NCBI GenBank assembly: GCA_019455065.1
Contig: JACFNC010000004.1
Location: 186,001 to 250,000 of the forward strand
Length of the DNA: 64,000 bases
Origin: Rhodospirillales bacterium
Lineage (GTDB): Bacteria > Pseudomonadota > Alphaproteobacteria > Rhodospirillales > Magnetospirillaceae
Direction: 5' to 3'
The notes under the pieces were generated by a model. That model saw nothing but the letters and a program-made list of their open reading frames with translations. It was not told the DNA's origin and did not search any database. Positions within the stretch are counted from its first letter, which is position 1, and the number at the start of each line of letters is the position of its first letter. Shown piece after piece: positions 712 to 48,915 of this stretch. The position numbers and the translations under genes are program-made.

Positions 712-2901
712 TCACAAGAAGCCATAGGGATCGACGTCCACCTGCAAACGCACGCCGCCGGGAATTTCCGCGGTGGACAGCCACCCCCGTAGCGTCGCCT
801 GCACGTTCACCCGGCGCTCCGCCCTGAGCAGCAGCCGCACCCGATGGCGGCCGCGCAGCATGGCGAGCGGCGCCGGGGCCGGGCCAAGCACCGTCACCCC
901 GGGGAGGCGCGGTGCCGAACGGGCAAGCCGGCGGGCGACCGCGTCGACGCGCGCGGCATCGGCGCCCGAAACGATCAGCGCCGCCAGCTTGCCGAAGGGG
1001 GGCATGCCGGCGGCGCGCCGCCCCGCCGCCTCCTCGGCGTAGAAGCGCTCGGCGTCGCCCGAGACCAGGGCCTGCATGACCGGATGGTCGGGCTGATAGG
1101 TCTGCAACAGCACCCGGCCGGGGTGTTCGGAGCGGCCGGCGCGTCCCGCCACCTGGGCCAGCAGCTGATAGGTGCGCTCCGCGGCGCGCAGGTCTCCCCC
1201 GGCCAGCCCCAGATCGGCGTCGATCACCCCGACCAGGGTGAGCAGCGGGAAGTGATGCCCCTTGGCGACGATCTGCGTGCCCACCAGCAAATCGAGTTCC
1301 CGCGCCTCCATGCGGCGCACGAGTTCCGCCGCGGCGGCGGGCGAGGCCACGGTGTCGCTGGCCATGATGGCGCAGCGGGCGTCGGGGAAACGCGCCGCGA
1401 CCTCTTCGTAGAGCCGTTCGACGCCGGGGCCGCAGGCGGCGAAGCTGTCGGCGGCGCCGCAGGACGGGCACAGGCTGGGCAGCCGCGCCTGATGGCCGCA
1501 ATGGTGGCACTGCAGGCGGCCGAGCAGGCGATGCTCGACCAGCCAGGCCGTGCAGTTGGGGCATTGCAGCCGCATTCCGCATCCCCGGCACAGCGTCAGC
1601 GGCGCATAGCCGCGGCGATTGAGGAACAGCATCGCCTGCTCGCCGGCGGCCAGGGTCTCCTCCAGGGCGGCGAGCAGCGGCGGCGACAGCCAGGACCGCC
1701 GTGGCGGGCCGTTGCGGCGCATGTCGACGGCGGCGACGCCGGGCATGGCGGCGCCGGCGTGGCGGTCGGGAAGGTGCAGGCGCCGATAGCGCCCGGCCTG
1801 CACGTTGGCCTGCGTCTCCAGGCTCGGCGTGGCCGAGGCCAGGACCACCGGATGTTCGCCCAGCCGGCCGCGCACGACCGCCATGTCGCGGGCGTGATAG
1901 ATGGTCCCGTCCTCCTGCTTGAACGACGAGTCGTGCTCTTCGTCGACGACGATCAGTCCCAGGTCCGGATAAGGCAGGAACAGCGCGGAGCGGGCGCCGA
2001 CGACGACGCGCGCCGCTCCTTCCGCCACCGCCCGCCATGTGTCGCGCCGCTGGCCGGCGGAAAGGTCGGAATGCCATTCGGCCGGCGGCGCCCCGAAACG
2101 CCGCGCGAACCTCTCCAGCCACTGGGCGCTCAAAGCGATCTCGGGCAGCAGCACCAGCACCTGTCGGCCCTTCTGCAGCGCCGCGGCGATGGCTTCGAAA
2201 TAGACCTCGGTCTTGCCGGACCCGGTCACGCCCTCGAGCAGGGTGACCGAGAAGCCGTCGACCACCTTGGCGGCGAGGTCCTGGGCCGCCTCGTGCTGGG
2301 CCCGCGAGAGGGACGGGCCGGGGCGCCGCCAGTCCGGTTCCGGAGGTGCCGGCGAGCGGCAGGTCGCCACCGCTTCCAGCAGGCCGGCGTCGGCCATGCC
2401 GCGGATCACCGACGGACTGACGCCCGCCTCGCGGGACAGATCTGCGGCCGGCAGCGGCGGCGTCCCGGTGACCAATTCCAGCACACGGCGGCGCGCCGGC
2501 GTCAGGCGCGCGGAGGCATCCTGAACAGCGGCGGCGCGATAGGCGACCATGGGGCGCGGAGGCTCGAGCGCGGCGGTTACGCTCATCGCCATCTTGAGCA
2601 CCGCCCCCGTTGGCGCCAGACAGTAGTCGCCGACCCATTCCACGAAGCGGCGCGAAATCTCGGGCAACGGAGGCGCCGGCAAACGTCCGCGCACTTCACG
2701 GAGCTTGGCGGGCGCGACCGTGTCGGTCCCGGGGCCCCATACCACCCCGACCTCGTCACGTCGGCCGAGCGGAACGCGAACGAACGCGCCCGCCTCGACG
2801 GCGAGACCTTCCGGTACAAGATAGTCGTAGGGGCCCGGCAAAGGCAGCGGAAGCATCACGGCGATGCGCTGGCCGGGCAGGAAGGTCTTGGAAATCCCCA
2901 T
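712..2901 (-). CDS. priA: Primosomal protein N' (replication restart helicase)
   Basis: This 729-residue protein has the full PriA architecture. An N-terminal 3' DNA-binding domain begins [20 protein letters not shown]. It is followed by a superfamily 2 helicase core with Walker A GVTGSGKT near residue 225 and the DEEH box near residue 319. Zinc-binding cysteine pairs (CRGC, CPNC, CHHC, CPSC) occur around residues 440-490. PriA recognises stalled or collapsed forks and reloads the replicative helicase. Length is normal for the family. The gene ends convergently with the preceding adaptor gene (15-bp gap), and long antisense ORFs across it are GC-driven shadows. Confidence 0.97.
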
Positions 2902-2947
2902 CCCGCCACTCTAGCGGCGGGGCGACACCATCAACAAGACGGCGCGA

Positions 2948-3799
2948 CTAGCGGACAGCCAGGATGTCACACGGAGGCTGGCGCAAGAGGTCCTCGGCCA
3001 CACTGCCCAGCAAGGCATGGGCGACTCCGCTTCGTCCGTGAGTGCCGATGACCAGCAACTCCGGCCTCGATCGTTTCGTCTCGTTGCGGACGACCTCGCG
3101 CACCATGCCGCGGGCGACGACCTGTCGGATAGAGGGGGCCTTGCCGGAGTAGCGGTCAAGGAAAGCCTCGACCTCGCCTGCGACCAGCCGCTCGATGTTC
3201 TCACGGTGCTTGGCCTCGACCGTTCGATCGGAGTCCTCGCCGGAAATAAAGGTCGCGAACGGTACTTCATAGGCATGGACCACCGTGAGTTCCGCCTCGG
3301 GCAACAGGCGGAGCGCGAATTCGAGCGCAGTGCGCGAGCATTCCGACATGTCGACCGCGACCATGACCTTGCGGTAGGGTGTGAAGGGGCGTTCGGTGAC
3401 AAGCAGCACCGGACGGCCGCTCTCGCGCAGGACCCGCGCGATCGTGGTGTGGCGCAACAGGTCGCCCGTGCGCGGTTTATGGGTGCCCAGAATCACGATG
3501 TCGGCCTTTGTCTCTTCAGCACATCGAATAATCGCTTCGGGACCCGGGCCGAAGGTTACGTGCGTGGAAAACGCGAGCCCGCGGCCTGCCCTCGCCGACC
3601 GCACATAGGCGCCGATCAACCTTTCCGCTTCCCGGCGCAATTCGTCTCGATGGCCGGATGGCGGCTCGCCCTCAATGGCGTGGACGACATGCAACTCGGC
3701 CTCTATCTGGCGCGCCAGCGACACCGCCCGGTCAAGGGCCCGGTCTGAATGGGGCGACAGGTCGGTCGCCACCAACACTTTCCCGGAATTCGACTGCAT
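2948..3799 (-). CDS. Tandem-domain universal stress protein
   Basis: The product has two UspA domains in tandem (about residues 1-140 and 145-283), each starting with a hydrophobic strand and an early Asp (KVLVATDLS and KVMVAVDMS). ATP-loop-like glycine patterns are visible, for example VIGTHGRSGVAH near the C-terminus. The ATG at 3799 is preferred over the ATG at 3829 because it follows a strong GGGAGGGCGAGA ribosome binding site. The longer start would abut the stop of the upstream ATPase gene exactly. Co-transcription with the P-type ATPase is very likely. Such proteins usually bind ATP and modulate stress or dormancy physiology; the precise role here is unknown. Confidence 0.88.
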   Translation of the reverse strand: MQSNSGKVLVATDLSPHSDRALDRAVSLARQIEAELHVVHAIEGEPPSGHRDELRREAERLIGAYVRSARAGRGLAFSTHVTFGPGPEAIIRCAEETKADIVILGTHKPRTGDLLRHTTIARVLRESGRPVLLVTERPFTPYRKVMVAVDMSECSRTALEFALRLLPEAELTVVHAYEVPFATFISGEDSDRTVEAKHRENIERLVAGEVEAFLDRYSGKAPSIRQVVARGMVREVVRNETKRSRPELLVIGTHGRSGVAHALLGSVAEDLLRQPPCDILAVR

Positions 3800-3829
3800 T
3801 CTCGCCCTCCCTAGGCCGAACGTCGCCAT

Positions 3830-6538
3830 TCAATGGGCGGTTGCCAAGCCCAACCGCCGCCGACCCAGCTTTTCCAATTCCAGCACGAAGAACAGGATCA
3901 CAGCCACCGCTACCACCAGCATGCCGTCGAAAAGTGACACCGGTCGAGTCTCAAACCATCGCTGCATGAAGGGGGCGTAGGTGAACACGAACTGCAGTCC
4001 GACCACAATGGCAACCGCGATCAGGACCGGGCGGGTTCCGAGGATGCCCTGGACCGTCAGCGACGGCGCCCTCAGATACCGCACGCTGAACAGATAGAAG
4101 ATCTCCATGGCCACCAGGGTATTGACGGCGAGGGTCCGCGCTTCCGCAACCTCGGCCCCGCGCCAAAGGGCAAGGTTAAACATGCCGAAGATGCCGCCCA
4201 CGAAAAGCGCCGACACCAGGGCGATCCGCCATAGCACGAACGTCGAAAGCATCGGGGCGTCGAGGCGGCGCGGCGGTCGCTTCATCACGTCGCTTTCCAT
4301 CGGTTCGAACGCCAAAGTCATCGCCAGGGCGACCGAACTCACCATGTTTACCCAAAGGATCTGCAAGGGCGTTATGGGCAGCATCAATCCCGCCAGGATC
4401 GCGGCGACGATCGCCAGCGACTCTCCGCCGTTGATCGGCAGCAGGAAGATGATGGACTTCTTGAGGTTGTCGTAGACCGCTCGTCCCTCTCGAACGGCCT
4501 CGGCGATCGACGCGAAGTTGTCGTCGGCGAGGACCATCTCCGCCGCCTCCTTGGCGGCGTCGGTGCCTTTCAGTCCCATCGCCACGCCCACGTCGGAGCG
4601 TTTAAGCGCCGGGGCGTCGTTCACTCCGTCTCCGGTCATGGCGACCGCATGGCCCGCCTCCTGGAGCGCCATGACGAGGCGGAGCTTGTGTTCCGGGCTG
4701 GTGCGCGCGAAGACGTCGACACCAACCGCGATCGAGGGTAGCGCGGGGTCGTCGATGGCGTCGATGTCGCGGCCGGTCATCACGTCCGCAGGGTTGCGAA
4801 GCCCAAGTTGTGCGGCGATGGCCCGGGCGGTGCCCGCATGGTCGCCGGTGATCATCTTGACGCGGATGTTCGCGGACTGACACTCGCGCACCGCCTCGAT
4901 CGCCTCTTCGCGCGGGGGGTCGATCAGACCGAGAAGGCCAAGAAGGGTCAACCCGCCGTCGACGTCCGAAAATCTGAGTTCGCGATGCTCCGGAGAGGTG
5001 GCCCGGGTCGCCACCGCCAACACACGCTGTCCCCGCGATGTCATTTCTTCGACAGCCGTTTCCCATAGCATTCGATGAACACGAACGTCGCCGCCACCGG
5101 TCCGCTGCGCGGCGCACATGTCTAACAGCCGCTCGGGTGCGCCCTTGACGAACACGAAGCCCCGGCCTTCGTGGTCGTGATGCAGGGTGGCCATGAAGCG
5201 GTGCTCGGATTCGAATGGGATCACGTCTGTTCGCGGGCGTTCCTTGGCTTCGAGATCGAGGCTGAACCCGGCCTTCAGGCCGGCCATCAGCAACGCCCCT
5301 TCCATCGGATCCCCCTCGACGACCCAACGGCCGTCCGCCTGGCGCAATTGGGAGTCGTTGCACAGGATCGCCGCCCGAATGACGGCGGACAAGGGCTCGG
5401 GCAATTCCGAAAGCTCCGCGCCCTCCGCCGAGAACCCGCCATGCGGGTCGTAACCGACGCCGCTGACCGAGTAGGCGCCGTCGGCGGTCGCGACGGCCGT
5501 GACCGTCATTTCGTTCCGGGTCAGGGTGCCCGTCTTGTCGGAGCAGATGATCGATACCGAGCCCAGGGTCTCGACGGCCGGCAGCCGGCGGATGATTGCG
5601 TTGCGCGCGGCCATGCGCTGCACGCCGATGGCCAGGGTGACCGTCAGGATGGCGGGCAGACCCTCGGGTATCGCGGCCACCGACAACCCGACCACGGCCA
5701 TGAACATCTCGCCGGCGTCATAGTCCCGCACCCACAGCCCGAACGCGAAGACCACCGCGCCAAGCCCCAGAATCCCCGCGGTCAGCCATGCCGAGAATCG
5801 CGTCATTTGACGCAGCAACGGGGTGGTGAGGGATTCCACGTCGGCGAGCATGGAACTGATCCGGCCGATTTCCATGTCCGCGCCGGTGGCGACGACCACC
5901 CCGGTCGCCTGACCCGAGGCGACGAGTGTTCCCGAGTAGGCCATCGAGGTGCGGTCACCCAGCGCCGCATCGCCTTGCACCGGGGCGATGTCCTTCGGCA
6001 CCGGGACCGATTCGCCGGTAAGCGAGGCTTCTTGGACCTGCAGGCCCTTGACCCGGACGAGCCGCATGTCGGCCGGCACCTTGTCGCCCGATTCCAAGGT
6101 GACGAGATCGCCGGGAACAAGTTCCTCGGCCGGTATGGTCAGGCGCCGGCCTCCACGTATGACGGCGGCGCGTGCGGACAGCATCTTGCGGATGGCCTGC
6201 AACGCCTTCTCGGCCTTCCCCTCCTGTACGAAGCCGATGACGGCGTTGAGGACGACGACGCCGAGGATGACGTTTGTATCGATCCAATGGCCTAGCGACG
6301 CCGTGATCGCCGCGGCACCGAGGAGTACGTAGATCAGCAGGTTGTGAAACTGGCCGAGAAAACGCCGCAGCGGACCGCGCCGTGCCGGCTGGGGAATCCG
6401 ATTGGGGCCATATCGATCGCGTCGCCGCGCGGCCTCCTCATCGGACAATCCGCCATCGCCGGTGCCGAGCGATGCGAGGGCCGCCGCCGCCGGGCGGTCA
6501 TGCCACGCTTGGCCCTGCGAAGGGCTTAGCGTGCTCAT
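3830..6538 (-). CDS. P2-type cation-transporting ATPase (CtpF/PacL-like)
   Basis: A 902-residue P-type ATPase with the complete cytoplasmic machinery: actuator TGES, phosphorylation motif DKTGTLT, hinge [13 protein letters not shown], and an N-terminal cation-ATPase domain ending before the first membrane pair. The M4 motif is PEGLP, as in Ca2+ and Na+/K+ pumps. M5 retains an N-x-G-E pattern (NGGE). M6 reads [12 protein letters not shown], so the Asp that coordinates Ca2+ in SERCA is replaced by Ser. The transported ion is therefore uncertain; the pattern is nearer to mycobacterial CtpF. It is the first gene of a two-gene unit with the universal stress protein. Start ATG chosen at 6538. Confidence 0.9.
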
Positions 6539-6701
6539 TCCATGGCTCGCGAGATGGCGTAGGCGCGCGGCATAGCCGTGAGATGGTTAGGGTTTTTGTA
6601 AAATCAAATCGGCGAAGCTGGCCGCCCGGATCGACTCGCATCGCCTGAGCCCTTGGGCTACACTGCCGCCGCCTGGACGGAACGTTCAGCCTGGAGAGCG
6701 A

Positions 6702-7415
6702 ATGGCGAGCAAGCAGGGAGACAAGGCGCGGGCGCCCAACGCGGGATCGCCGACCGAGGGCGAGGTGAAGGCCTATCTCAAGGATCATCCCGACTTTCTG
6801 GTGCGCCATTCGGACTTGCTTTTGCGGTTGACGGTGCCGTCCCGTTCGCGCGGCGACAACGTTGTCGACCTGCAGGAGTTCATGATCGAGCGCTTGAAAA
6901 GCGAGGTCGAGGACTTGCGGGGGTGCGCCGAGCACCTGATCACGACCACCCGCAACAACATGTCGACGCAGGCGCGCACCCACGAGGCGGCGCTGGCCGT
7001 TCTCACCGCCGCCGGCATGGCGGAACTCGCGCAGGTCGTGGCCGACGAACTACCGCCCCTGCTCGACGTGGATGTGGTCACTCTTTGCTTCGAAGTGGGA
7101 GACCAGCCGCTTCCCGAACTGGCCGTCAGCGGAATCCAGCGGCTTCCGGCGGGCAGAATTGACCTGCTCCTCTCCCAGGGGCATAGCGTCCTGCGCGGCA
7201 ACGCGGTGGGGGATCCCGAGGTCTTCGCCGATGGCGCCGGACTCGTCCGCTCATACGCCCTCGTCCGGCTCGATCCGGGCGGGCGTTGCCCGGTGGGCCT
7301 TCTCGCCCTGGGCTCGCGCAACGAGCGCACCTTCCACCACAGCCAGGCGATCGATCTTCTCACCTTCCTGGCCCGCATCATCGAAAACGCGGTCTGCCGG
7401 TGGGTGGCGGCCTGA
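6702..7415 (+). CDS. DUF484 family protein
   Basis: A 237-residue DUF484 protein. The N-terminal part carries the characteristic YLKDHPDFLVRHSDLL segment, followed by a coiled-coil-like stretch (about residues 50-95) and a GAF-like C-terminal domain ending in FLARIIENAVCRW. DUF484 genes are commonly found directly upstream of xerC in Proteobacteria, as here, where the two reading frames overlap. The biochemical function of the family is not established. A GAGAG-type ribosome binding site precedes the ATG. Confidence 0.9.
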   Translation: MASKQGDKARAPNAGSPTEGEVKAYLKDHPDFLVRHSDLLLRLTVPSRSRGDNVVDLQEFMIERLKSEVEDLRGCAEHLITTTRNNMSTQARTHEAALAVLTAAGMAELAQVVADELPPLLDVDVVTLCFEVGDQPLPELAVSGIQRLPAGRIDLLLSQGHSVLRGNAVGDPEVFADGAGLVRSYALVRLDPGGRCPVGLLALGSRNERTFHHSQAIDLLTFLARIIENAVCRWVAA

Positions 7416-8350
7416 TCCGCTTCGCGGGCGACGCGGCACTCTTGCAGGCGTTGGCGGCATGGCAGGCGTGGCTGGGGGACGAGCGCCGGGTGTCCGCCCA
7501 TACGTTGGACGGCTATGGCCGTGACCTCGCCGCGTTCCTGGCGTTTCTGACGGACCACCTCGGCGGCGAACCGCGTCTCCAAGACCTCGAGCGCCTGGCG
7601 ACCGCCGATTTCCGCGCCTATCTGGCGCGACGTTCCGGCGACGGCCTGTCGCGGGCGTCGCTGGCCCGCGCCATGTCGACGTTACGCGGGTTCTTCCGTT
7701 TTCTCGACAGGACAGGGCGGTTGCACAACGCCGCGCTGTCCGCCGTCCGCGCTCCCCGGCCCCCCGCGTCGGTGCCGAAGCCTCTGGCCGCCGACGAAGC
7801 GCTGGAGGCGCTGGAGACGGCCGCCGAATTGCAGGACGAGCCGTGGCTGGCGGCGCGCGACACCGCCCTGTTCACCATGCTCTACGGCTGCGGGTTGCGA
7901 TTGGGCGAGGCATTGTCCCTGAACCGGCGCGATGTGCCCAAAGGCGAAACGATGGTGGTGACCGGCAAGGGACGCAAGCAGCGGGTGGTGCCGGTGCTGC
8001 CCGTGGTCGCCGCGGCGCTTGCCGACTACCTGTCGCTGTGCCCCTTCGCGCATGGCGAGGATGCGCCGCTGTTCGTCGGCGCGCGCGGCAAGCGGCTGAA
8101 TCCGGGGGTCGTGCAGCGGCAGATGCGGCGGTTGCGCGCCTTGCTCGGGCTGCCGGCGACGGCGACGCCGCACGCCCTGCGCCACAGCTTCGCCACCCAC
8201 CTGCTGGCCGGGGGGGGCGATCTGCGCACCATCCAGGAACTCTTGGGACACGCCTCGCTCAGCACCACGCAGCGGTACACCCAGGTCGATCAGGCGCGGC
8301 TGTCAGGAATCTACCAGCAGGCTCATCCGCGGGCGAAGGCCTCGGAGTAG
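7400..8350 (+). CDS. xerC: Tyrosine recombinase XerC
   Basis: The product (316 residues from GTG 7400) has the SAM-like N-terminal core-binding domain and a catalytic domain with the tyrosine-recombinase signature. Visible are the Arg in GCGLRLGEAL, Lys in GKGRKQR, the HxLR box in HALRHSFATHLL, a His in LLGHASLSTTQ, and the nucleophilic Tyr in RYTQVD. XerC acts with XerD at dif to resolve chromosome dimers. The frame is open further upstream, but that stretch is a shadow of DUF484. The GTG at 7400, 16 bases before the DUF484 stop, is the first sensible start; a CTG at 7412 is the alternative. It sits in the housekeeping DUF484-xerC context, not in a mobile element. Confidence 0.92.
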   Translation: MGGGLIRFAGDAALLQALAAWQAWLGDERRVSAHTLDGYGRDLAAFLAFLTDHLGGEPRLQDLERLATADFRAYLARRSGDGLSRASLARAMSTLRGFFRFLDRTGRLHNAALSAVRAPRPPASVPKPLAADEALEALETAAELQDEPWLAARDTALFTMLYGCGLRLGEALSLNRRDVPKGETMVVTGKGRKQRVVPVLPVVAAALADYLSLCPFAHGEDAPLFVGARGKRLNPGVVQRQMRRLRALLGLPATATPHALRHSFATHLLAGGGDLRTIQELLGHASLSTTQRYTQVDQARLSGIYQQAHPRAKASE

Positions 8351-8357
8351 CGCAGGC

Positions 8358-8705
8358 CTAAACGCCCGGGTCGCTGCGCTCGATGAACAGTCGCAGGTTG
8401 CTGGGCATCCGGTCCTTGATGCGGTTGAGGCCGCGCGACACCGGCGGCGCCTGGCGGCGGATCCAAGTTACCGATCGGCGTGCCTTTCGCGAGCCGCGGG
8501 CGACGAAATAGAGCCCCAGTGCGAACAGCACGAATCCCACCGGCACCGGCGTCGGCACCGAGGCGACTCCGGCCAGCATGAACGCCGATCCCATCCCGAG
8601 CAGGCCCGTCCGCTTGGTCCACACCATGAGGCGTCGGCGACGGCGGCGGAGCAAGGCGTGGTCAGTTCTCAGGATGGTCGCAAGCCTCGTCCTGTCACCA
8701 AGCAT
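8358..8705 (-). CDS. Small PGPGW-like inner-membrane protein
   Basis: About 115 residues from the ATG at 8705. An Arg-rich cytoplasmic N-terminus (RRRRRR) precedes a hydrophobic hairpin built on the pattern MGSAFMLAGVASVPTPVPVG and FVLFALGLYFVARG, followed by a basic helical tail. The glycine/proline-rich hairpin resembles PGPGW/DUF454-type small membrane proteins. A longer frame up to 8795 would overlap the MFS gene, and a shorter one could begin at ATG 8627; no ribosome binding site decides clearly. Function unknown. Confidence 0.55.
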   Translation of the reverse strand: MLGDRTRLATILRTDHALLRRRRRRLMVWTKRTGLLGMGSAFMLAGVASVPTPVPVGFVLFALGLYFVARGSRKARRSVTWIRRQAPPVSRGLNRIKDRMPSNLRLFIERSDPGV

Positions 8706-8754
8706 GATGGTTCCGAGCGGGGAAGGGTCGAGTACATATGCACCCGAGGCTAGG

Positions 8755-9942
8755 CTAGGGCAAGCGCCGCGACCACAAGATCGCCAGTGGCCCAAGCATG
8801 GCTACCATGCTCACCGAGGCGAAGGCCATCGCCCAGGCGTAGGCGCTGTTCGCGCCGCCGGCCAGGTCGAGCACGACACCGACGGCGAGCGGGCCGAGAA
8901 ACGCCGCCGTGAACCCCAGTACCGAATGCAGCGCCATCGTCGTTCCACGCCGTCCGGCGTCGGCCGAGTGCACCGCCCCCGTGGTCAGGGCGGCCGAATC
9001 GGCCTGGATGAAGGCGGAATGCACGATGCTCAGCAGCGCCACGGCGACATAGGGCAGCGAGGAGGAGAAGCCGAAGGCCAGGGCGGCGGCGGCCGACAGG
9101 ACCATCCCCGTCATGATTACCCGGCCGCGATCCAGGCGCGCTGCGATGTCGGCGCCGACGATGCTGGCGACCATGGCCACCACGGCCGCCACCGTCATTA
9201 CCGAAGTCGGACTCCAGCCGGGCTCCGTTCCCTGGCTATGGGCCACGAAGGCAAGAAACGCCACGGCCCAGGAGCGGGCCGCGAAAAGTTCCCAGCAATG
9301 CACCGTGTAGCCCAGGATGTAGCCCATCGCCGGCCGGTTGCGTAACACCGGGCGGTAATCCAGAAGATGGGTCGGTTGCTCGGGCGGCAGGGGCTTCGCC
9401 GGTCGCAGAAGCGTGGCGACCAACGCCATCCCCAGGGCCGCTGCGATACCCGATGCGGCGAACGCCCAACGCCAGTCGAAGGCGGCCACGATCTCGCCGA
9501 CGACCAGGAACGAGGCGCTGGTGCCCAGGCTGAAACTCGCCGTGTAGAACGAGATGGCGCGCGGCTGCATGGGGCCGTCGAAGCGGTCGACCAGGGCACG
9601 CAGGCCGGGCATGTAGGTTCCGGCCAGACCCACCCCGCCTAATGCGCGGAACATCATCGCCGTCCAGAATCCATCGGCTATCAGGGCGAAGCCGAGCGCG
9701 GATATCGCTGATGTACCGGCGCCGAACAGGTAGATGCGGCGCGCGTCGACGCGGTCGGTCAAACCGACCAGGATGGGAACCGCGACCGTGTAGCCGGCGA
9801 AATACACGCCGCTGATCCATCCGGCCTCGGTGTTGCTGAGGCTCCATTCGGCAAGAAAGGTCGGCAGGGCGGCCGGAAAGGCGAACACGCCAAGCATCGT
9901 CAGCACCTCGGCGATGCACAGCGCCACGACCACCCGCCACAT
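8755..9942 (-). CDS. MFS transporter
   Basis: A 395-residue major facilitator with twelve predicted membrane segments. It has the loop 2-3 signature around GLTDRVDARRIYLFG, and a second half beginning near residue 210 (GYILGYTVHCWELFAARSW). The start codon overlaps the stop of the upstream small membrane-protein gene by one base (TGATG), so translational coupling is likely. Sequence alone does not reveal the substrate. The family is closest in feel to CynX/NimT-like or sugar-phosphate permease-like exporters, but this is only an impression. Confidence 0.85.
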   Translation of the reverse strand: MWRVVVALCIAEVLTMLGVFAFPAALPTFLAEWSLSNTEAGWISGVYFAGYTVAVPILVGLTDRVDARRIYLFGAGTSAISALGFALIADGFWTAMMFRALGGVGLAGTYMPGLRALVDRFDGPMQPRAISFYTASFSLGTSASFLVVGEIVAAFDWRWAFAASGIAAALGMALVATLLRPAKPLPPEQPTHLLDYRPVLRNRPAMGYILGYTVHCWELFAARSWAVAFLAFVAHSQGTEPGWSPTSVMTVAAVVAMVASIVGADIAARLDRGRVIMTGMVLSAAAALAFGFSSSLPYVAVALLSIVHSAFIQADSAALTTGAVHSADAGRRGTTMALHSVLGFTAAFLGPLAVGVVLDLAGGANSAYAWAMAFASVSMVAMLGPLAILWSRRLP

Positions 9943-10238
9943 CAGCGAGCCCCGCCGTTCTTGTCGTTGCCGTCGGTGCCGTTATGGCGGCGCAGCCAGT
10001 CGGCGGCCCGGTCCTTGGCCGCGTCGAAGGTGGCCGCGAGTTCGGGATGGCGCGCGCGCATGCGATCAAGCTGCCGCTGCGCCCAGGGCGAGACGGTGGA
10101 CAGGATATAGAAGCCGATGGCGAGGAACAGGAAGCCCTGAAGGATCGGCAGGAACAGGCCGATAACGCCCAGTACCACGAAGCCCCAGCCGGCCCCCAGC
10201 GTCAGCCACCGTTTCATCCACCGCCAGTGCGTGCGCAT
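9942..10238 (-). CDS. PGPGW/DUF454-type small membrane protein
   Basis: A 98-residue protein with a short basic N-terminus and a hydrophobic hairpin (WGFVVLGVIGLFLPILQG then FLFLAIGFYILS), followed by an amphipathic, charged C-terminal tail (RMRARHPELAATFDAAK). This is the layout of PGPGW (DUF454-like) inner-membrane proteins. Its TGA overlaps the ATG of the MFS gene by one base, so the two are a translationally coupled pair. A similar small protein lies on the other side of the transporter. No function is known. Confidence 0.7.
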   Translation of the reverse strand: MRTHWRWMKRWLTLGAGWGFVVLGVIGLFLPILQGFLFLAIGFYILSTVSPWAQRQLDRMRARHPELAATFDAAKDRAADWLRRHNGTDGNDKNGGAR

Positions 10239-10364
10239 CGCTCCCCGTCTCGTCCGTGGCCCGGCCGGCCGAGGGAAGATATGGTACGCGCCGGGTCATG
10301 CCAAGCGGCGAGGCCGCCTCACCATCTGCAAGCCGATGGCTGATCCTCGTGTGGAGCGCGGCAG

Positions 10365-11774
10365 TCAGATATGCAAGGCCCGGCCGTCGACGGCCAGCGC
10401 CGCCTCCTTGATGGCCTCGCCGAGCTGGGGGTGGGCGTGGCTGGAGCGCGCGACGTCCTCGGCCGAGGCGCCGAACTCCATGGCAACGACGATCTCCTGG
10501 ATCAGGTCGCCGGCCTGCGGACCGATGATGTGGGCGCCCAGGATGCGGTCGGTCCTGGCGTCGGCAAGGATCTTCACGAAGCCGTCGGCGTCGGCGTTGG
10601 CGCGCGCCCTCGAGTTGGCGCTGAACGGGAACTTTCCCACCTTGTAGGCGACGCCGTCCTGCTTCAGTTGCTCCTCGGTGCGGCCGACCGCGGCGATCTC
10701 GGGCCAGGTGTAGACGACGCTGGGAATGGCCTCGTAATTCACGTGGCCGGCCTGGCCGGCGATGATCTCGGCCACCGCCACGCCCTCTTCCTCGGCCTTG
10801 TGGGCCAGCATCGCGCCGCCGACCACGTCGCCGATCGCCCAGATGCCCGGAACGTTGGTGCGAAAGTGCCCGTCGATCCTGACGAAGCCGCGGTTGGTGA
10901 TCTCCACCCCGGCCTCGCCGAGGCCAAGTCCCTCGGTGAAGGGGCGGCGGCCGATGGCCACCAGGACGACGTCCGCGGCCACCTCTTCGGTGGCGCCCCC
11001 GTCCACAGGCTCGATCGTCAACTTGACGCCGCTCTTGGCGCGCTTGGCCGCGGTCACCTTCGAGGACAGCCGGAAGGTCATGCCCTGGCGGCCGAGGATG
11101 CGCTGCGCCTGCTTGGAGATTTCGCCGTCGAAGGGGGGAAGGACGCGGTCCATGAACTCGACGACGGTGACCTCGGCGCCCAGGCGCCGCCATACCGAGC
11201 CCAGTTCGAGCCCGATGACCCCGGCGCCGATGACGACCATCGACTTCGGCACCTTGGGCAGGGCCAAGGCGCCGGTGGAGGAGACGATGCGGTCCTCGTC
11301 GATCTCCACGCCCGGCAGGGGCGTCACGTCCGAACCGGTGGCCAGTATGATGTTCCCGGCCTTGATCACGGTCTCGCCGCCCCCGTTCTGCGCCACGCCG
11401 ATCCGGCCGTCGCCGAGCAGGCGGCCGGCCCCGACCACATAGGTCACCTTGTTCTTCTTGAACAGGAACTCGATGCCCTTGGTGTTCTCGCCGACCACCT
11501 TGTCCTTGCGCGTCATCATCGTGGCGAGATCGAGTCCCACCCCGTCGACCTTGATGCCGTGCGCGGCCATGCCGTGGCGCGCGTGTTCGAAGTGGTGGGT
11601 GGACTGCAACAGCGCCTTCGACGGAATGCAGCCGACGTTCAGGCATGTTCCGCCCAGCGTGCCGCGCTTTTCGACGCAAGCGGTCTTGAGGCCAAGCTGC
11701 GCGGCCCGGATGGCGGCGACGTATCCGCCGGGTCCACCGCCGATGACGACGACATCGAATTCCTGCTCGGCCAT
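10365..11774 (-). CDS. lpd: Dihydrolipoyl dehydrogenase (E3)
   Basis: A 469-residue flavoprotein disulfide reductase. It shows the FAD dinucleotide fold at the N-terminus ([14 protein letters not shown]), the redox-active disulfide in [13 protein letters not shown], a second NAD-binding Rossmann motif ([12 protein letters not shown]), and the C-terminal His-Glu dyad ([13 protein letters not shown]). It reoxidises dihydrolipoamide on the E2 subunit of 2-oxoglutarate dehydrogenase and probably on other lipoyl complexes. It is the last gene of the mdh-suc cluster, separated from sucB by a 217-bp gap that carries a palindromic repeat. Internal transcription start or processing in that gap is possible. 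Confidence 0.97.
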
Positions 11775-27268: not shown

Positions 27269-27384
27269 GCCCTCACCCCGGCCCTCTCCCGCAAGCGGGA
27301 GAGGGAGGAAGGGGCGGGACCAGATCCCTCTCCCGCTTGCGGGAGAGGGAGGGGCCCGGCCGGCAGGCCGGGAGGGTGAGGGGC
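27269..27384. repeat. Inverted palindromic repeat abutting the sdhB fragment
   Basis: Two copies of the palindrome CCCTCTCCCGCAAGCGGGAG (the second as TCCCTCTCCCGCTTGCGGGA) lie about 55 bp apart, flanked by inverted CCCTCACCC/GGGTGAGGG ends. The result is one large imperfect hairpin. This CCTCTCCC type of palindrome is widespread in GC-rich Proteobacteria. Its right end lies within two bases of the start of the 491-bp sdhB duplication. Confidence 0.8.
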
Positions 27385-27385
27385 G

Positions 27386-27876
27386 GCGCCTCAGCGCCGC
27401 TCGACCAGCTTCTGCTTGATGCTGCCGATGGCCTTGGCGGGGTTCAGGCCCTTGGGGCAGGTGGTGGTGCAGTTCATGATGGTGTGGCAGCGGTACAGGC
27501 GGAACGGGTCCTCGAGGTGGTCGAGGCGTTCGCCGGTCATCTCGTCGCGGCTGTCGTCAATCCAGCGCGCCGCCTGCAATAGGATCGCCGGGCCGAGATA
27601 GCGCTCGCCGTTCCACCAGTAGCTGGGGCACGAGGTTTGGCAGCAGAAGCACAGGATGCACTCCCACAGCCCGTCCAGCTTGGCCCGCTCCTCGGGGCTT
27701 TGCAGCCGCTCGCGGTCCGGCGGCGGCGGCGTCTGGGTCTGCATCCACGGCTTGATCGAGGCCAGCTGCGCGTAGGGCACGCTGAGGTCGGGCACCAAGT
27801 CCTTGACCACCGGCATGTGCGGCAGCGGATAGATCTTCACCGCGCCCTTGACGTCGTCGATCGGCTTCAGGCAGGC
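27386..27876 (-). repeat. 491-bp direct repeat, left copy (sdhB 3' end)
   Basis: Identical in register to 31794-32284 (offset 4,408 bp). It covers codon Ala99 to the stop of sdhB plus five bases downstream. The only difference I find is T at 27849 versus C at 32257, giving Lys instead of Glu at SdhB position 108. Identity stops abruptly at both ends, at 27385/31793 and 27877/32285. Confidence 0.97.
27391..27876 (-). pseudogene. Truncated 3' fragment of sdhB
   Basis: It encodes SdhB residues 99-259 in frame to the natural stop, including the [4Fe-4S] and [3Fe-4S] cysteine motifs ([12 protein letters not shown] and [14 protein letters not shown]). It lacks the first 98 residues and most of the [2Fe-2S] domain. 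An open frame continues to 27972 into unrelated sequence that overlaps the ietA promoter on the other strand; that part has no ribosome binding site I recognise. It cannot be a working succinate dehydrogenase subunit. Confidence 0.9.
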
Positions 27877-27935
27877 TGCACGGGCCACGCGCTTCGCTAA
27901 TATGCGCAACAATTTAACCGAGATACGCAACAACA

Positions 27936-27973
27936 AGTGGTTTACACACAACCAAAACCGGCGTATAACCACT
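27936..27973. promoter_or_regulatory. Inverted repeat over the ietA promoter, candidate operator
   Basis: AGTGGTT (27936-27942) and AACCACT (27967-27973) form perfect 7-bp arms that overlap the -35 and -10 hexamers of the ietA promoter. Nearby GCGCAAC-like repeats occur at 27904, 27925 and 27988. The placement fits autoregulation, perhaps by the helix-turn-helix-like C-terminus of IetA. Confidence 0.45.
27941..27969 (+). promoter_or_regulatory. Sigma-70 promoter of ietAS
   Basis: TTTACA at 27941-27946 and TATAAC at 27964-27969 are separated by exactly 17 bp. Both hexamers are close to consensus and the region is AT-rich compared with the surroundings. Transcription would start near 27976, about 25-30 bases before the ietA start codon. 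Confidence 0.65.
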
Positions 27974-27998
27974 CAAGATAAAAAATAGCGCAACGATC

Positions 27999-29246
27999 GT
28001 GAGTGCAATGGAGCATTTTCCCATCATCCAGGCATTGTGCCGCACGGCCCTAGCCGATGCCTCGCTTGCTACCCGCAAGCAGATAGAGCGGCTACGTGAT
28101 GCCTTAGTGAAGGCTGGCGATGACAAGCAGGCGGCAAGCCTTGCGGCTATGCTTATGTCGGCGGAGCGGAACAAAGAGGTCGTGCCCAGCCGACTGGCCA
28201 AGTCGCGCGCCCAGATGCCGGGAGAGGCTTTATCACCAGGAACACCGGTCCCTGTAGACCGGGAAACTGCTGCGCCTGTAGCAACATTGCTGTTCCCGGA
28301 GGAACTTCGCGCTGATCCGCCAGTCTTCAACCCAGTGGTTTCGGCCGCAATCGAGTCGATGCTGGAAGAGTGGCGCAATCTACAAGCATTGAGCGCACTC
28401 GGCGTCCAGCCTGCCAAGACGTGCCTGATTTATGGAGTGCCTGGGACAGGAAAGACCCGGCTGGCAATGTGGATTGCCCGGCAGTTGGAGATGCCCGTTG
28501 TCCTTGCCCGCTTGGATGGCCTTGTTTCCTCATTCCTTGGGACGACGGCTCGGAATATCGGCAATCTTTTTGCTTTCGCCAACAGATATCGGTGTCTGCT
28601 GCTGTTGGACGAATTCGACGCAATTGCGAAGCTCAGAGACGATCCCCAGGAGGTCGGAGAAATCAAGCGTGTCGTCAACGCTCTACTCCAGAACCTTGAT
28701 GGACGCCAGGAACTCGGCCTTACCATCGGTGTCACGAACCATTCCAAGTTGCTCGATCCCGCCGTTTGGCGGCGGTTTGAGGTGCAGTTGGAGGTGCCAA
28801 AGCCTGATTTTAATGTGCGAAAGGACATTTCTCGCTATTTTATGGCTCCGGTCGAGTGCCCTGACAGCCACTTCCGCCTCCTCGCTTGGTTCACTGAAGG
28901 TCTCACTGGCGCCGAGATCGAGGTGCTCGTACGGACATACAAAAAGTCTATGGCTGTTCACGGTGAAGGGGGGCGCGATCTGATTGAAACTCTTCGACAC
29001 TTCGCCACCCTCAATAGCGGTCGCTGCGAGCCCGGTCGGCGCGGGCTTCTATTTGGAGACAGCAAGGCTCTGTTCCGTGCGATGAAGGAAGCGCCGGAAC
29101 TGAACTTCACCATGGCGGACATCGGTGAGGTCGCAGGTCGAGATAAGTCGACCGTGAGTCGAGCAATCGGAAAACGTAGCAGCCGATTTGAAGCGCCTCA
29201 AACGGGGAAGGTGACAGATGGTCAGCCCGATCCAGATCGTTCTTAA
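27999..29246 (+). CDS. ietA: AAA+ ATPase of an IetAS module
   Basis: A 415-residue AAA+ protein (GTG 27999; ATG 28008 is an alternative). A helical N-terminal part precedes Walker A GVPGTGKT (residues 146-153), Walker B LLLLDEFD (Asp-Glu at 204-205), a sensor-1-like GVTNHS, and a WRRFE segment fitting the arginine finger. The C-terminus has a helix-turn-helix-like pattern (IGEVAGRDKSTVSRAIGKR). In Agrobacterium pTi plasmids, IetA is the antitoxin-like ATPase paired with the protease IetS for plasmid stability and incompatibility, and ATPase/subtilase pairs have been reported as anti-phage systems. The start of ietS overlaps its end by 29 bases. Confidence 0.82.
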   Translation: MSAMEHFPIIQALCRTALADASLATRKQIERLRDALVKAGDDKQAASLAAMLMSAERNKEVVPSRLAKSRAQMPGEALSPGTPVPVDRETAAPVATLLFPEELRADPPVFNPVVSAAIESMLEEWRNLQALSALGVQPAKTCLIYGVPGTGKTRLAMWIARQLEMPVVLARLDGLVSSFLGTTARNIGNLFAFANRYRCLLLLDEFDAIAKLRDDPQEVGEIKRVVNALLQNLDGRQELGLTIGVTNHSKLLDPAVWRRFEVQLEVPKPDFNVRKDISRYFMAPVECPDSHFRLLAWFTEGLTGAEIEVLVRTYKKSMAVHGEGGRDLIETLRHFATLNSGRCEPGRRGLLFGDSKALFRAMKEAPELNFTMADIGEVAGRDKSTVSRAIGKRSSRFEAPQTGKVTDGQPDPDRS

Positions 29247-31710
29247 CCCGGAGAATTTTGAAGAGGCTCGTGAAACGACGGGTGGAGGAGAACGAAAGGA
29301 TTTCTTTGCTTTCGAAGACGCCGCATTCAGGGCGCACAAGGCCGCACTTAACGCGCAGGTCCAGGGTATTGCGGAAACGCTTGCCCGACAGTCCGAAGGG
29401 GACGTTGGCTACGTTAAGGTCGTCTTGAGGCGTAAAGCCTGGGCAAAGAGCCACCGGCCACTCAATTCATTGTTCCGTAGCAACCGGATCCCATTGGTTG
29501 GTGGCGGCGACCTGGGCGTGATGATCTTTGAGGCCCGCCCTAGGACTCTACTGCAAATCGCGGCTGATATTAAAAAGGCGGAGGAGACTACCCGCCTCCG
29601 ATATGATGATCGCAAGGGCAAAGAAGTCCCTTGGCCGAGCCCTCAACGAAGCGAAGTTGGCGCAATCAAGCAGGTTGAGCTTTACGGCCCCAGCGACAGG
29701 CGCGATTTTTCAGTCGATGAGGCGGTGATGTGGCTCGCTAACCCCAAGACGGGAGGCAGCTATCATGTCCAACTATTTGGACTTCCGCCTACCAAAGCCG
29801 ACTGGGATTTGCTCGATGAGGGCCACCAGCGTCTCTACCGCTCCTTTCTCGAAGGGTTGCATTCATTTGGTACAGGGCTGACGGTTGAGCGGCGTGTAGC
29901 CGAGGGGCGGACTAACCCACTTTTGATGGTAAGGTTAGGGAGATCATCTCAACCCGCTGCCCTGCGGTTGACACCTCTTGCTCCCACGGAACGCCGGAGA
30001 GAGGTACTGCCATTCGACGGCGATGTGAACCGCCACGACCGCCTCCTCCACTTTCTCGAACACCACCCGCTCGTCAGAAAAATCGAATTGCCGGGCATCA
30101 TCGTAAAGAGCGAGACACGGACAGAACGTTCTCGACCTCTCTTGGCAACGTTGCCCATACGCGCCGCTCGGACCTATCCGAGAATCGGCATCATAGACGG
30201 TGGCGTCAGCGACCACTTGTCGGATTGGGTTATCGACCGGTGGGATTTACTTGCTGATGAAGACAAGGACCACGGACACGGCACCTTCATCGGTGGTCTT
30301 GCCGTAGCCGGTGGCACCCTCAATACGGCGGATGTCTGCCCCGAGCCTGATGGCGCAGAAATAATGGATTTAGCGGTGTTTCCCACCGAAGGGACAGGCG
30401 CCTTTTCAACCTATTTCCCAGATGGACTGCCTCAGTTCTTTGACGAGGTGTCATCGGCCGTAGCGGAGGCTAAGGCGCGTCACGGCATACGCGTCTTCAA
30501 CATGAGCCTAAACGTCCTTCAGCCTGCGTCCCCAAATCAATACAGCTCTCATGCAGCAAGACTGGATGAAATCGCCGAAGCCAATGACATCATCATCTTC
30601 CTATCCGCAGGCAACACCGCGCCGCAGGAGACCCGGTTGGAATGGCACGCTGACGACGCCCAAGCCTTAGCGGCGCTCGCCACTGCCCGTAACGACGGAT
30701 TGCTCATCCCGGCAGAGAGCGTAAGAAACGTGTCGGTTGCTGCGCTCAATCCTCCAGGCCTGACTAGCTCCATCGCCCACGCCCCAGCATGTTATTCTCG
30801 GCGCGGTCCCGGGCTCCGGTCTGGCGTCAAACCCGACCTTGCTCACATTGGGGGATCCGGCAGCCCGGCTGCGCCTATTGGGCATGGACTCTTTTCTATA
30901 CTTCCGGATGGCAACGTCACCGATGGCTGCGGAACCAGCTACGCAACCCCGCTGGTCGCAAAAACAGCGGCTGTTCTAGACAACATTATTGAAGGCGACG
31001 TTTCGCGGGAAACCCTTATTGCGCTGCTCGTCCACCACGCCCAAGTTCCTGCGCCACTTCGCAAGAAGGCCCTAAAAGGTGTTGCCCGCGACTTAGTTGG
31101 TTTCGGCCTGCCACCCGCCGCCGAACGAATGCTGGAGACCGATGATCATCAAATTACGCTCGTCATCGCGTCGCGCATCCACAAAGACCAACAGATTTCG
31201 TTTCGGTTTAATTGGCCCGCATCCTTGGTGGATTCTGAGGGTAAGTGCCGTGGTCATGCGAAGCTCACCCTAGTCTCGACCCCGCCCCTGAACCACAAAT
31301 TTGGTGCTGAGTTTGTACGTGTAAACATCGACGCAGCACTTCAGCAGCAATCCCCAGATGGCAAGTGGAAGGGCCGCCTCGAGCCTGTCTATCTTCCAGA
31401 AAAAAAAGGGGCTCACGCGTATGAAGCAGAGCTCATCTCCCATGGCCTGAAATGGGCTCCAATCAAAATGTATGAAAAATCCATCCCACGTGGCGTTGGG
31501 CAAGGGTCAAACTGGCGACTTATAATCGAGTACTTGACTCGCTCTGGCGAGGAAATGCCAAGGGATGGCGTTCCATTTACTGCGATTCTTACTATCTCTG
31601 ACCTTGATGGAGCACGTCCTGTTTTCAATGACTTACGCCAGACATTGAATGCGCTTGGCGTAAAGATTTCTGACATTCGGACTGCGGCTAGAATTACTTC
31701 TCGGGTTTAG
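29218..31710 (+). CDS. ietS: Subtilisin-like serine protease of an IetAS module
   Basis: An 830-residue S8-family protease without signal peptide, so cytoplasmic. The catalytic triad is Asp327 (GIIDGG), His354 (HGHGTF) and Ser574 (GTSYATP), with the oxyanion Asn466 (SAGN). A 300-residue N-terminal region and a 200-residue C-terminal region flank the protease domain and have no motif I recognise. The ATG at 29218 lies six bases after GGGGAAGG. In the pTi IetAS pair the protease is the toxic component. All catalytic residues are present, so the enzyme should be active and need restraint by IetA. Confidence 0.85.
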   Translation: MVSPIQIVLNPENFEEARETTGGGERKDFFAFEDAAFRAHKAALNAQVQGIAETLARQSEGDVGYVKVVLRRKAWAKSHRPLNSLFRSNRIPLVGGGDLGVMIFEARPRTLLQIAADIKKAEETTRLRYDDRKGKEVPWPSPQRSEVGAIKQVELYGPSDRRDFSVDEAVMWLANPKTGGSYHVQLFGLPPTKADWDLLDEGHQRLYRSFLEGLHSFGTGLTVERRVAEGRTNPLLMVRLGRSSQPAALRLTPLAPTERRREVLPFDGDVNRHDRLLHFLEHHPLVRKIELPGIIVKSETRTERSRPLLATLPIRAARTYPRIGIIDGGVSDHLSDWVIDRWDLLADEDKDHGHGTFIGGLAVAGGTLNTADVCPEPDGAEIMDLAVFPTEGTGAFSTYFPDGLPQFFDEVSSAVAEAKARHGIRVFNMSLNVLQPASPNQYSSHAARLDEIAEANDIIIFLSAGNTAPQETRLEWHADDAQALAALATARNDGLLIPAESVRNVSVAALNPPGLTSSIAHAPACYSRRGPGLRSGVKPDLAHIGGSGSPAAPIGHGLFSILPDGNVTDGCGTSYATPLVAKTAAVLDNIIEGDVSRETLIALLVHHAQVPAPLRKKALKGVARDLVGFGLPPAAERMLETDDHQITLVIASRIHKDQQISFRFNWPASLVDSEGKCRGHAKLTLVSTPPLNHKFGAEFVRVNIDAALQQQSPDGKWKGRLEPVYLPEKKGAHAYEAELISHGLKWAPIKMYEKSIPRGVGQGSNWRLIIEYLTRSGEEMPRDGVPFTAILTISDLDGARPVFNDLRQTLNALGVKISDIRTAARITSRV

Positions 31711-31747
31711 TTGTAGATTCTCTGCGACGGAGAAATAAACAGAAAGA

Positions 31748-31768
31748 GCCGGGGGCTTGCGCCCCGGC
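31748..31768. terminator. Hairpin between ietS and sdhB, probable sdhB terminator
   Basis: GCCGGGG (31748-31754) pairs with CCCCGGC (31762-31768). On the minus strand it is followed by TCTTTCTGTTTATTTC, fitting an intrinsic terminator 26-50 bp after the sdhB stop. On the plus strand it is followed by CCTTTCGC and may also stop ietS transcripts. No equivalent follows the left sdhB fragment. Confidence 0.6.
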
Positions 31769-31793
31769 CCTTTCGCTGTGATGATCCCTGCCT

Positions 31794-32284
31794 GCGCCTC
31801 AGCGCCGCTCGACCAGCTTCTGCTTGATGCTGCCGATGGCCTTGGCGGGGTTCAGGCCCTTGGGGCAGGTGGTGGTGCAGTTCATGATGGTGTGGCAGCG
31901 GTACAGGCGGAACGGGTCCTCGAGGTGGTCGAGGCGTTCGCCGGTCATCTCGTCGCGGCTGTCGTCAATCCAGCGCGCCGCCTGCAATAGGATCGCCGGG
32001 CCGAGATAGCGCTCGCCGTTCCACCAGTAGCTGGGGCACGAGGTTTGGCAGCAGAAGCACAGGATGCACTCCCACAGCCCGTCCAGCTTGGCCCGCTCCT
32101 CGGGGCTTTGCAGCCGCTCGCGGTCCGGCGGCGGCGGCGTCTGGGTCTGCATCCACGGCTTGATCGAGGCCAGCTGCGCGTAGGGCACGCTGAGGTCGGG
32201 CACCAAGTCCTTGACCACCGGCATGTGCGGCAGCGGATAGATCTTCACCGCGCCCTCGACGTCGTCGATCGGCTTCAGGCAGGC
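31794..32284 (-). repeat. 491-bp direct repeat, right copy (inside intact sdhB)
   Basis: This is the partner of 27386-27876, with one substitution (C at 32257). It covers the last 161 codons of the intact sdhB gene, its stop codon and five following bases. Confidence 0.97.
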
Positions 32285-32578
32285 CAGCGTGTTGGCGCCG
32301 TCGATGTTCATGGCGCACGACCCGCAGATGCCCTCGCGGCAGGATCGGCGGAAGGTCAGCGTCGAGTCGACCTCGTTCTTGATCTTGATCAGCGCGTCGA
32401 GAACCATCGGGCCGCAGGCGTCGCGGTCGATCTCGAAGACGTCGAGGGTGGGATTGCCGCCGGCGTCGGGGTCGTAGCGGTAGATCTCGAACGTCTTGAC
32501 GTTCTTCGCCCCGGCCGGAGCCTTGACGGTCTTGCCCCGGGTGACACGCGAGTTGGGCGGCAGCGCGAATTCGACCAT
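31799..32578 (-). CDS. sdhB: Succinate dehydrogenase iron-sulfur subunit
   Basis: A complete 259-residue SdhB. The [2Fe-2S] domain has CREGICGSC and a fourth Cys at residue 100. The [4Fe-4S] ligands are in [12 protein letters not shown] and the [3Fe-4S] ligands in [14 protein letters not shown]. It carries electrons from FAD in SdhA to quinone and heme in SdhCD. It is the last gene of sdhCDAB. Its last 161 codons are duplicated 4.4 kb away, so the coding sequence either survived or was rebuilt by the integration next to it. Confidence 0.97.
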
Positions 32579-36438: not shown

Positions 36439-36520
36439 GTCATTGCGAGGAGGCCTTGCCGACGAAGCAATCCAGGCCGGCCGTGGCCCTGGATTGCTTC
36501 GCCTGCGGCTCGCAATGACG
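36439..36520. repeat. Palindromic repeat, GTCATTGCGAG family, copy 1
   Basis: An imperfect inverted repeat with outer arms GTCATTGCGAG and CTCGCAATGAC and inner arms GAAGCAATCCAGG and CCTGGATTGCTTC. It lies between the two ethylmalonyl-CoA pathway genes. A second copy in the opposite orientation is at 48835-48915. Confidence 0.85.
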
Positions 36521-48834: not shown

Positions 48835-48915
48835 GTCATTGCGAGCCGCAGGCGAAGCGATCCAGTGCCGCCGGCGCAGGCTGGATTGCTTCGTCGCTAC
48901 GCTCCTCGCAATGAC
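48835..48915. repeat. Palindromic repeat, GTCATTGCGAG family, copy 2
   Basis: It has the same arm sequences as the repeat at 36439-36520 (GTCATTGCGAGCCGCAGGCG at the left and CTCCTCGCAATGAC at the right), in opposite orientation. It fills the gap between the convergent kinase and pyrE genes, where its hairpin could terminate both transcripts. Confidence 0.85.

Follow-up and report, generated by a model that had tools for sequence, protein, structure and literature searches.

Pairs of an AAA+ ATPase and an S8 subtilase of the IetAS kind have been characterized in a mobile element setting. SgiA and SgiT of Salmonella genomic island 1 (SGI1), which are relatives of IetA and IetS of pTiC58, were tested as antitoxin and toxin, respectively; in the available parts of that report, deletion of sgiAT raised the loss of SGI1 in the presence of an IncA/C plasmid and had no effect in its absence, and no post-segregational killing was recorded with sgiAT under its own promoter (PMC5006074). 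A further AAA-ATPase/subtilase toxin–antitoxin pair, TA132/133 of Mycoplasma mycoides, has flanking direct repeats, according to the accessible part of its description (PMC8562856). Here, we describe an ietAS pair placed between two copies of the 3′ end of sdhB in a Rhodospirillales bacterium (assembly GCA_019455065.1, contig JACFNC010000004.1, positions 186,001 to 250,000, the whole 64,000-nucleotide stretch being hereafter the window), which was probably added beside this core gene by the homologous recombination of the host.

Restriction-modification units are reportedly able to insert with long target duplication, an event said to have been treated by Nobusato in 2000 and Furuta in 2010. 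In the available portions of three reports, such insertion of restriction-modification modules is described as needing no mobile element (PMC1643837, PMC3031569, PMC3874152). In Vibrio, one-sided recombination was proposed, in the part of the work that is accessible, to push old gene ends of type VI secretion system (T6SS) and Rhs loci downstream as orphans (PMC5361080).

An ietAS Cassette between Two sdhB 3′ Ends

Two direct repeats, offset by 4408 bp and identical at 490 of 491 bases, enclose the ietAS pair. The sole mismatch is a T at 27849 and a C at 32257, and the identity between the copies ends at both edges of the 491 bp, ruling out the tandem duplication of a longer segment. The elements of the locus are as follows (positions are those of the window).

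27386–27876, minus strand: left repeat copy, a headless sdhB 3′ fragment (codons 99–259, the stop codon and 5 nt), 490/491 identical to the right copy
31794–32284, minus strand: right repeat copy, the 3′ part of the intact sdhB, from the repeat comparison
31799–32578, minus strand: intact sdhB, 259 aa, from its open reading frame (ORF) and homologues
28008–29246, plus strand: ietA, AAA+ ATPase and predicted antitoxin, with Walker A at residue 143, Walker B at 197, and a C-terminal helix-turn-helix at about 369–387, from profiles, motifs and an AlphaFold model
29218–31710, plus strand: ietS, S8 subtilase and predicted toxin, with D-H-S triad and oxyanion N motifs, its start overlapping ietA by 29 nt, from profiles and motifs
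27391–27972, minus strand: possible fusion ORF of 193 aa, starting with the GTG at 27972 in the leader of ietA and continuing into the left copy of the sdhB end, without an inferred function

The overlapping ietA and ietS were the sole genes recognized between the repeats, and no other ORF there was recognized as a recombinase. The arrangement proposed in an earlier note on this DNA was recovered in full, including the duplicated SdhB codons 99–259, the right copy within an intact gene (ORF 32578–31799), the left copy lacking the first 98 codons, and the two-gene interior. A search of the whole genome located the 491-bp sequence in two places only, both in this locus, and the blastn E-values of about 1e-256 or lower exclude a chance origin. 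The GC content was 56.1% in the cassette, 67.4% in the repeat and 68–70% in the flanks. The genome, a draft in 40 contigs totalling 3.96 Mb with 96.13% completeness and 2.47% contamination, is the sole one of its genus in the comparison set.

It was also observed that an 8-bp inverted repeat lies near both cassette ends, with CAGGCAGG at 27868–27875 and CCTGCCTG at 31787–31794; its chance is ~0.006 in random window pairs, for a feature spotted post hoc. Self-comparison of the window (E 1e-5) returned one further repeat pair only, which is a second palindromic repeat of ~83 bp, 87% identical and in opposite orientation, at 36439–36519 and 48835–48915. No tRNA or known RNA was found at the site in the window.

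Flanks of the Two Copies

The two sdhB ends are followed by sequences that differ in kind.

27270–27382, no strand assigned: repetitive extragenic palindromic (REP)-like dispersed element directly beyond the left copy, with two 30-nt inverted arms and a hairpin, and a conserved end GGGAGGGTGAGGG at 27370–27382
31742–31774, minus strand: intrinsic-terminator-like hairpin with a T-rich tail, 24 nt past the stop codon of the intact sdhB, from folding and a terminator scan

On the left, the identity of the repeat ends 3 nt from the end of the REP-like element. This element has at least 58 matches in its own genome, with both palindrome strands counted, in about two dozen places, a lower bound obtained with 40 of the 57 candidates scored. 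Some of its copies stand at contig ends (C36, C8) and, judged by reading 13 stretches, some (e.g., L101, L103, L104) start soon after an apparent stop codon. On the right, the hairpin occupies a common place, as 12 of 20 relatives have a terminator, by our own scan, no more than 130 nt from the end of sdhB; the same scan found none behind the left fragment.

The only mismatch falls in a codon that specifies Lys in the left fragment and Glu in the intact sdhB. Among 29 relatives, this residue was Lys in 26 and Ser, Gln or Ala in three, and Glu was found in none, so that the fragment, bearing the family-typical residue, is not merely a decayed copy of the intact gene. Since both the flanks and this residue differ, the locus is suggestive of two sdhB 3′ alleles from two strains joined in one chromosome, rather than of a gene and its decaying duplicate.

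The sdhB Site in Relatives

A single sdhB end was seen in other genera of the family and of the order, to which the comparison was confined. In the 20 family stretches around sdhB, zapE lies ~0.5–4.1 kb from sdhB in 15 and outside the stretch in the other five, and ietAS was found in none. Because most of these stretches have zapE near sdhB without ietAS, the cassette is a later arrival in a long-standing neighborhood, and the possibility raised in the earlier note, that all relatives carry it at an ancestral position, finds no support in these stretches.

Second sdhB ends were sought in overlapping sets of 61 genomes, 55 genomes of the family and 317 of the order, with matches in 52 of the 55 and 294 of the 317. 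The order search, which used the 162-aa sdhB end as query at E ≤ 1e-40 and would miss shorter remnants, gave a single match in 292 of the 293 matching genomes other than that of the window (G000). The remaining one, G066, had two matches ~300 kb apart, both spanning the whole query and neither truncated, and so no truncated second sdhB end was found in these 293 genomes at this threshold. Further matches in the 61-genome search, at 26–40% identity, were taken for paralogous iron–sulphur subunits. Given that a second close sdhB end occurs only in G000 and G066, nothing marks this site as a hotspot among the genomes sampled, all of them from outside the genus, and the role of sdhB as a carrier site for such cassettes, as suggested in the earlier note, found no support.

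Identity of the ietA and ietS Genes

The assignment of both genes to IetAS, previously based on gene order, sizes and motifs, was confirmed by profile search. The best PADLOC models were PDLC02195 for IetA (E = 1.9e-153) and PDLC02199 for IetS (E = 2.9e-300), with coverage near full length (profile positions 1–391 of 395 and 4–825 of 826, respectively), and the Pfam matches were AAA and Peptidase_S8. The NCBI equivalog models were matched below their cut-offs, with 260.2 of 510 bits for IteA and 327.4 of 900 bits for IteS, which identifies the pair as a divergent IetAS branch, belonging to the wider PADLOC family and standing outside the NCBI IteA/IteS equivalog. The Walker A, Walker B, D-H-S triad and oxyanion Asn motifs are all present.

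The start of ietA is very probably the ATG at 28008 (MEHF) instead of the GTG at 27999, since homologues begin with MEHF. The ATPase part of IetA matches p97/CDC48-type chains. In the AlphaFold model of IetA (13 sequences, mean predicted local distance difference test (pLDDT) of 74.8), the C-terminal helices 369–376 and 380–387, in blocks of pLDDT 78–92, are in line with a helix-turn-helix, for which the Pfam matches were weak and below cut-off.

Relatives of the pair are rare at the cut-offs applied, the genome of the window being included in each count: IetS relatives were found in two of 317 order genomes (E ≤ 1e-100) and three of 385 class genomes (E ≤ 1e-80), and IetA relatives in six of 398 phylum genomes (E ≤ 1e-40), with partial matches in four of the six. 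One of the nearest relatives, at locus L113 of genome G550 (about 2320–11154; 65% IetS identity), adjoins a large ATPase gene. By eye, this gene resembles BrxC of the bacteriophage exclusion (BREX) system, and so this ietAS probably sits in a defence island.

A Phased Repeat Array Upstream of ietA

The leader of ietA contains the following features.

27906–27994, plus strand: ietA operator-like array, with GCAAC at 27906, 27927 and 27990 and ACAAC at 27948 (by eye), at spacings of 21, 21 and 42, from a motif scan and reading
27941–27969, plus strand: sigma-70-like promoter TTTACA-N17-TATAAC for ietAS, from a pattern set after reading the sequence; a stricter scan did not report it

The array sites surround this promoter, and the phasing is shared by related loci. 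The 180 bp before ietA were compared at 22 loci (24 were found, of which two near-identical ones were dropped; L042, in which ietA is cut, was excluded beforehand), which are related and therefore not independent cases. At a lag of 21 bp, six-base words had a similarity of 0.98, against 0.13 ± 0.04 in 200 single-base shuffles, the next best lags being 42, 41 and 20. The value at lag 21 was 0.13 for the region 360–180 bp upstream, 0.13 near the end of ietA, and 0.34 in the first ietA codons, where the peak was at lag 48 (0.70). Phased repeats were also present upstream of ietA in most of L033–L045.

The loci form two groups by motif, both motifs being chosen after reading the sequences. In eight window-like loci (the window, L106–L110, L113 and L114), 39 occurrences of GCA[ACT]C were counted over 160 bp, compared with a shuffle mean of 4.0 and a maximum of 10, and all of its 31 spacings were 20–22, 41–42 or 63 bp, with a best period of 20.8, equal to about two turns of the helix. 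In 12 more distant loci, GAT[AT][ACT] occurred 63 times (shuffle mean 13.2, maximum 22), 21 and 42 being the commonest spacings among others, with a best period of 10.4. L038, L042, L046, L070/L115 and L092 were left out of both groups. The motif of the other group was not above chance in either (7 vs. 7.2 and 6 vs. 5.1), and the IetA C-terminus reads DKSTVSR in the window-like group and mostly GQSRVSD in the distant one; the array motif thus changes together with the IetA C-terminal helix-turn-helix.

A motif-free test with 300 shuffles covered 11 additional loci, namely L117 and 10 from the 45 plasmid records in which an IetA relative was found. The five nearer loci gave 0.13 at lag 21, against 0.02 ± 0.02 (maximum 0.08), lags 40 and 20 being higher at 0.17 each; the six remote loci gave 0.11, against 0.03 ± 0.02 (maximum 0.12), which is not beyond all shuffles. 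The array likely reflects autoregulation by IetA, in which IetA would act as a repressor, possibly as an AAA+ hexamer bound to phased sites. No report of such an array at ietA was found in the portions of the open-access literature available.

Other IetAS Loci and Possible Vectors

The notion of IetAS as a habitual duplicator of its target is unsupported. At 24 other IetAS loci, repeats straddling ietAS were found only at L033 (30–32 bp at 87.5% identity, more than 12 kb apart), and no longer repeat was present, with the reservation that some flanks were short on one side (L042, 4 bp; L038, 492 bp; L041, 526 bp; L034, 886 bp; L036, 945 bp) and that L046 and L091, whose contigs are equally long, look like one locus.

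A phage or plasmid vector was likewise rejected. Phage records contained only remote IetS relatives (five records, 23–28% identity), and IMG/VR two contigs with IetS relatives at 38–39%. IetA relatives were present in 45 plasmid records, at 63–68% in seven of them; flanking repeats were found in none of the five of these whose surroundings were tested, and no plasmid record covered at least 80% of the locus in one place. Regarding other entry routes, the gene transfer agent marker family GTA_TIM was not found in the genome of the window, which encodes ComEC. Neither result shows how the DNA entered.

Origin of the Cassette

The explanation we favor, which we hold to be probable, is that a horizontally acquired IetAS toxin–antitoxin/anti-phage module was added beside sdhB by host homologous recombination. 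The donor would have belonged to the same lineage or to one very close to it, with ietAS just behind sdhB and its terminator. The incoming DNA may have been a circle integrated through a single Campbell crossover, or a linear molecule homologous to the chromosome only at its sdhB side, in which homology-facilitated illegitimate recombination would have joined the non-homologous end at sdhB codon 99. Both events give the same product and are inseparable by sequence. In this product, the donor-type terminator stands behind an intact sdhB; ietAS comes next, and beyond it lie the displaced 3′ end of the resident sdhB, the REP-like element of the resident and zapE. As in Campbell-type integration, the region of homology is present twice, one gene copy being complete and the other truncated. 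In this respect, the geometry proposed in the earlier note stands; its 4,408-bp circle and its site-specific alternative are inferences.

By analogy with its family, IetA would restrain the protease IetS, and loss of the module or phage attack would free IetS to harm the cell. If RecA looped the cassette out between the 491-bp repeats, an ordinary sdhB would result, and so the persistence of the cassette suggests youth or selection; the pair itself could be the source of such selection, as freed IetS would also punish this loss. IetA probably represses its own promoter via the 21-bp-phased array. Altogether, the event looks single and young, and it was seen once.

Several observations weigh against this explanation. 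A single mismatch is weak evidence for two alleles, and the difference could also stem from a single allele that afterwards gained a REP insertion and lost its terminator. The terminator scan overall was not above chance (one site found vs. a shuffle mean of 5.5), and because it found fewer sites than the shuffles, only the place of the terminator is telling. The fold on the left is also strong (REP-like hairpins at −43.2 kcal/mol, z −2.57; right side at −36.4, z −3.0). The 8-bp inverted repeat is left unexplained by recombination. ComEC says little on DNA uptake, since it is also present in 10 of 14 control genomes, including E. coli. In a set in which the genus is represented by one genome, neither a donor nor an empty congener nor a circle came to light, and the draft assembly and this lack of congeners are the weakest points.

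Among the alternatives, insertion with long target duplication, in which the module would itself have been the moving unit and would have duplicated 491 bp of its target by an unspecified copying mechanism, as proposed for restriction-modification units, is rather unlikely, even though it would match the anatomy of a self-contained toxic module between long direct repeats without a recombinase, would leave room for the 8-bp inverted repeat, and has a partial parallel in the repeats reported around the mycoplasma pair in the accessible part of that work. What speaks against it is that a terminator-like hairpin on one side and a REP-like element on the other fit two alleles better, and that none of the 24 other IetAS loci has flanking repeats above 32 bp. 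An assembly artefact or a mixed state is improbable. On an assembly graph, the contig is equivalent to an uninterrupted chromosomal sdhB accompanied by a 4,408-bp circle, since the two are joined through the 491-bp repeat, and some contigs of this draft (C36, C8) end at dispersed elements far shorter than 491 bp, as in short-read assemblies. However, the different bases at 27849 and 32257 and the different outer flanks indicate that the copies are not one collapsed copy, and a 4.4-kb circle without a replication gene should not persist free.

A site-specific integrative element that replaces the interrupted gene end, mobilized by an integrase in trans, is very unlikely. The gene is indeed restored, as with elements integrating in gene 3′ ends, and the island SGI1, home of an IetAS relative, has the 3′ end of trmE as its integration site, as given in the available text. 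However, no recombinase was recognized between the repeats, a 491-bp repeat is not a short att core, and the search at E ≤ 1e-40 found no second, truncated sdhB end among the 293 further order genomes with a match, nor were such repeats found at other IetAS loci. Still further down in probability, with hardly any weight, is a scenario in which ietAS first inserted downstream of sdhB and template switching or repair then copied 491 bp of sdhB locally to the far side. It would account for the normal-looking terminator retained by the intact sdhB, and the fragment could be a patch between the REP-like element and ietA; nevertheless, it requires two events, and the fragment has the family-typical Lys, with the rare Glu in the intact gene.

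The explanation favored above, addition by host homologous recombination, also admits a bolder form, which we regard as a speculation of slim probability. The sdhB fragment and IetAS would constitute a recombinase-free mobile unit, forming a 4.4-kb circle via RecA between its repeats, passing between cells and re-entering strains of the lineage through their own sdhB, unharmed, with the toxin punishing its loss and a hexameric AAA+ antitoxin reading the helically phased operator array.

If host recombination was at work, this locus would offer a young-looking snapshot of a defence/addiction module settling beside a core gene at no cost to the gene and with no enzyme of its own. It makes testable whether IetAS prevents its own RecA deletion between the 491-bp repeats, and the 20.8-bp-phased repeats at the ietA promoter make the regulation of the little-studied IetAS family testable as well.

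Comparison with Known Systems

The window pair resembles IetAS and SgiAT in the order of an AAA+ ATPase followed by an S8 subtilase and in its near full-length profile match to both proteins. It differs from them in being divergent by the NCBI equivalog scores and in having a toxicity and a defence role that are predicted only. SGI1 has its own integrase, in contrast to the window cassette, in which none was recognized. With TA132/133 of Mycoplasma mycoides, the window shares a similar protein pair accompanied by direct repeats at one locus.

With the one-sided displacement proposed for Vibrio T6SS and Rhs loci, as far as the available text describes it, the window shares one homologous side, one illegitimate side, and a resident 3′ end orphaned downstream, differing in that the displaced end belongs to a housekeeping gene and the cargo is a toxin–antitoxin/defence pair. 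The anatomy is also that of long target duplication, namely a self-contained addictive module between long direct repeats of its target, whose length for restriction-modification units is given as "in the order of 100 bp" in the accessible portions of those reports, as compared with 491 bp here. Considering these partly available descriptions of restriction-modification modules and of the mycoplasma pair, the earlier suggestion that such an arrangement had not been described was too strong, although nothing relevant on the sdhB case or on an IetAS/sdhB combination was found in the open-access literature. The window departs from long target duplication in its IetAS module, in a core-gene target left intact, and in copies that look like two alleles. 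Therefore, the kind of event is known and the combination of IetAS with sdhB is new, and it extends the long-target-duplication pattern from restriction-modification units to an IetAS pair.

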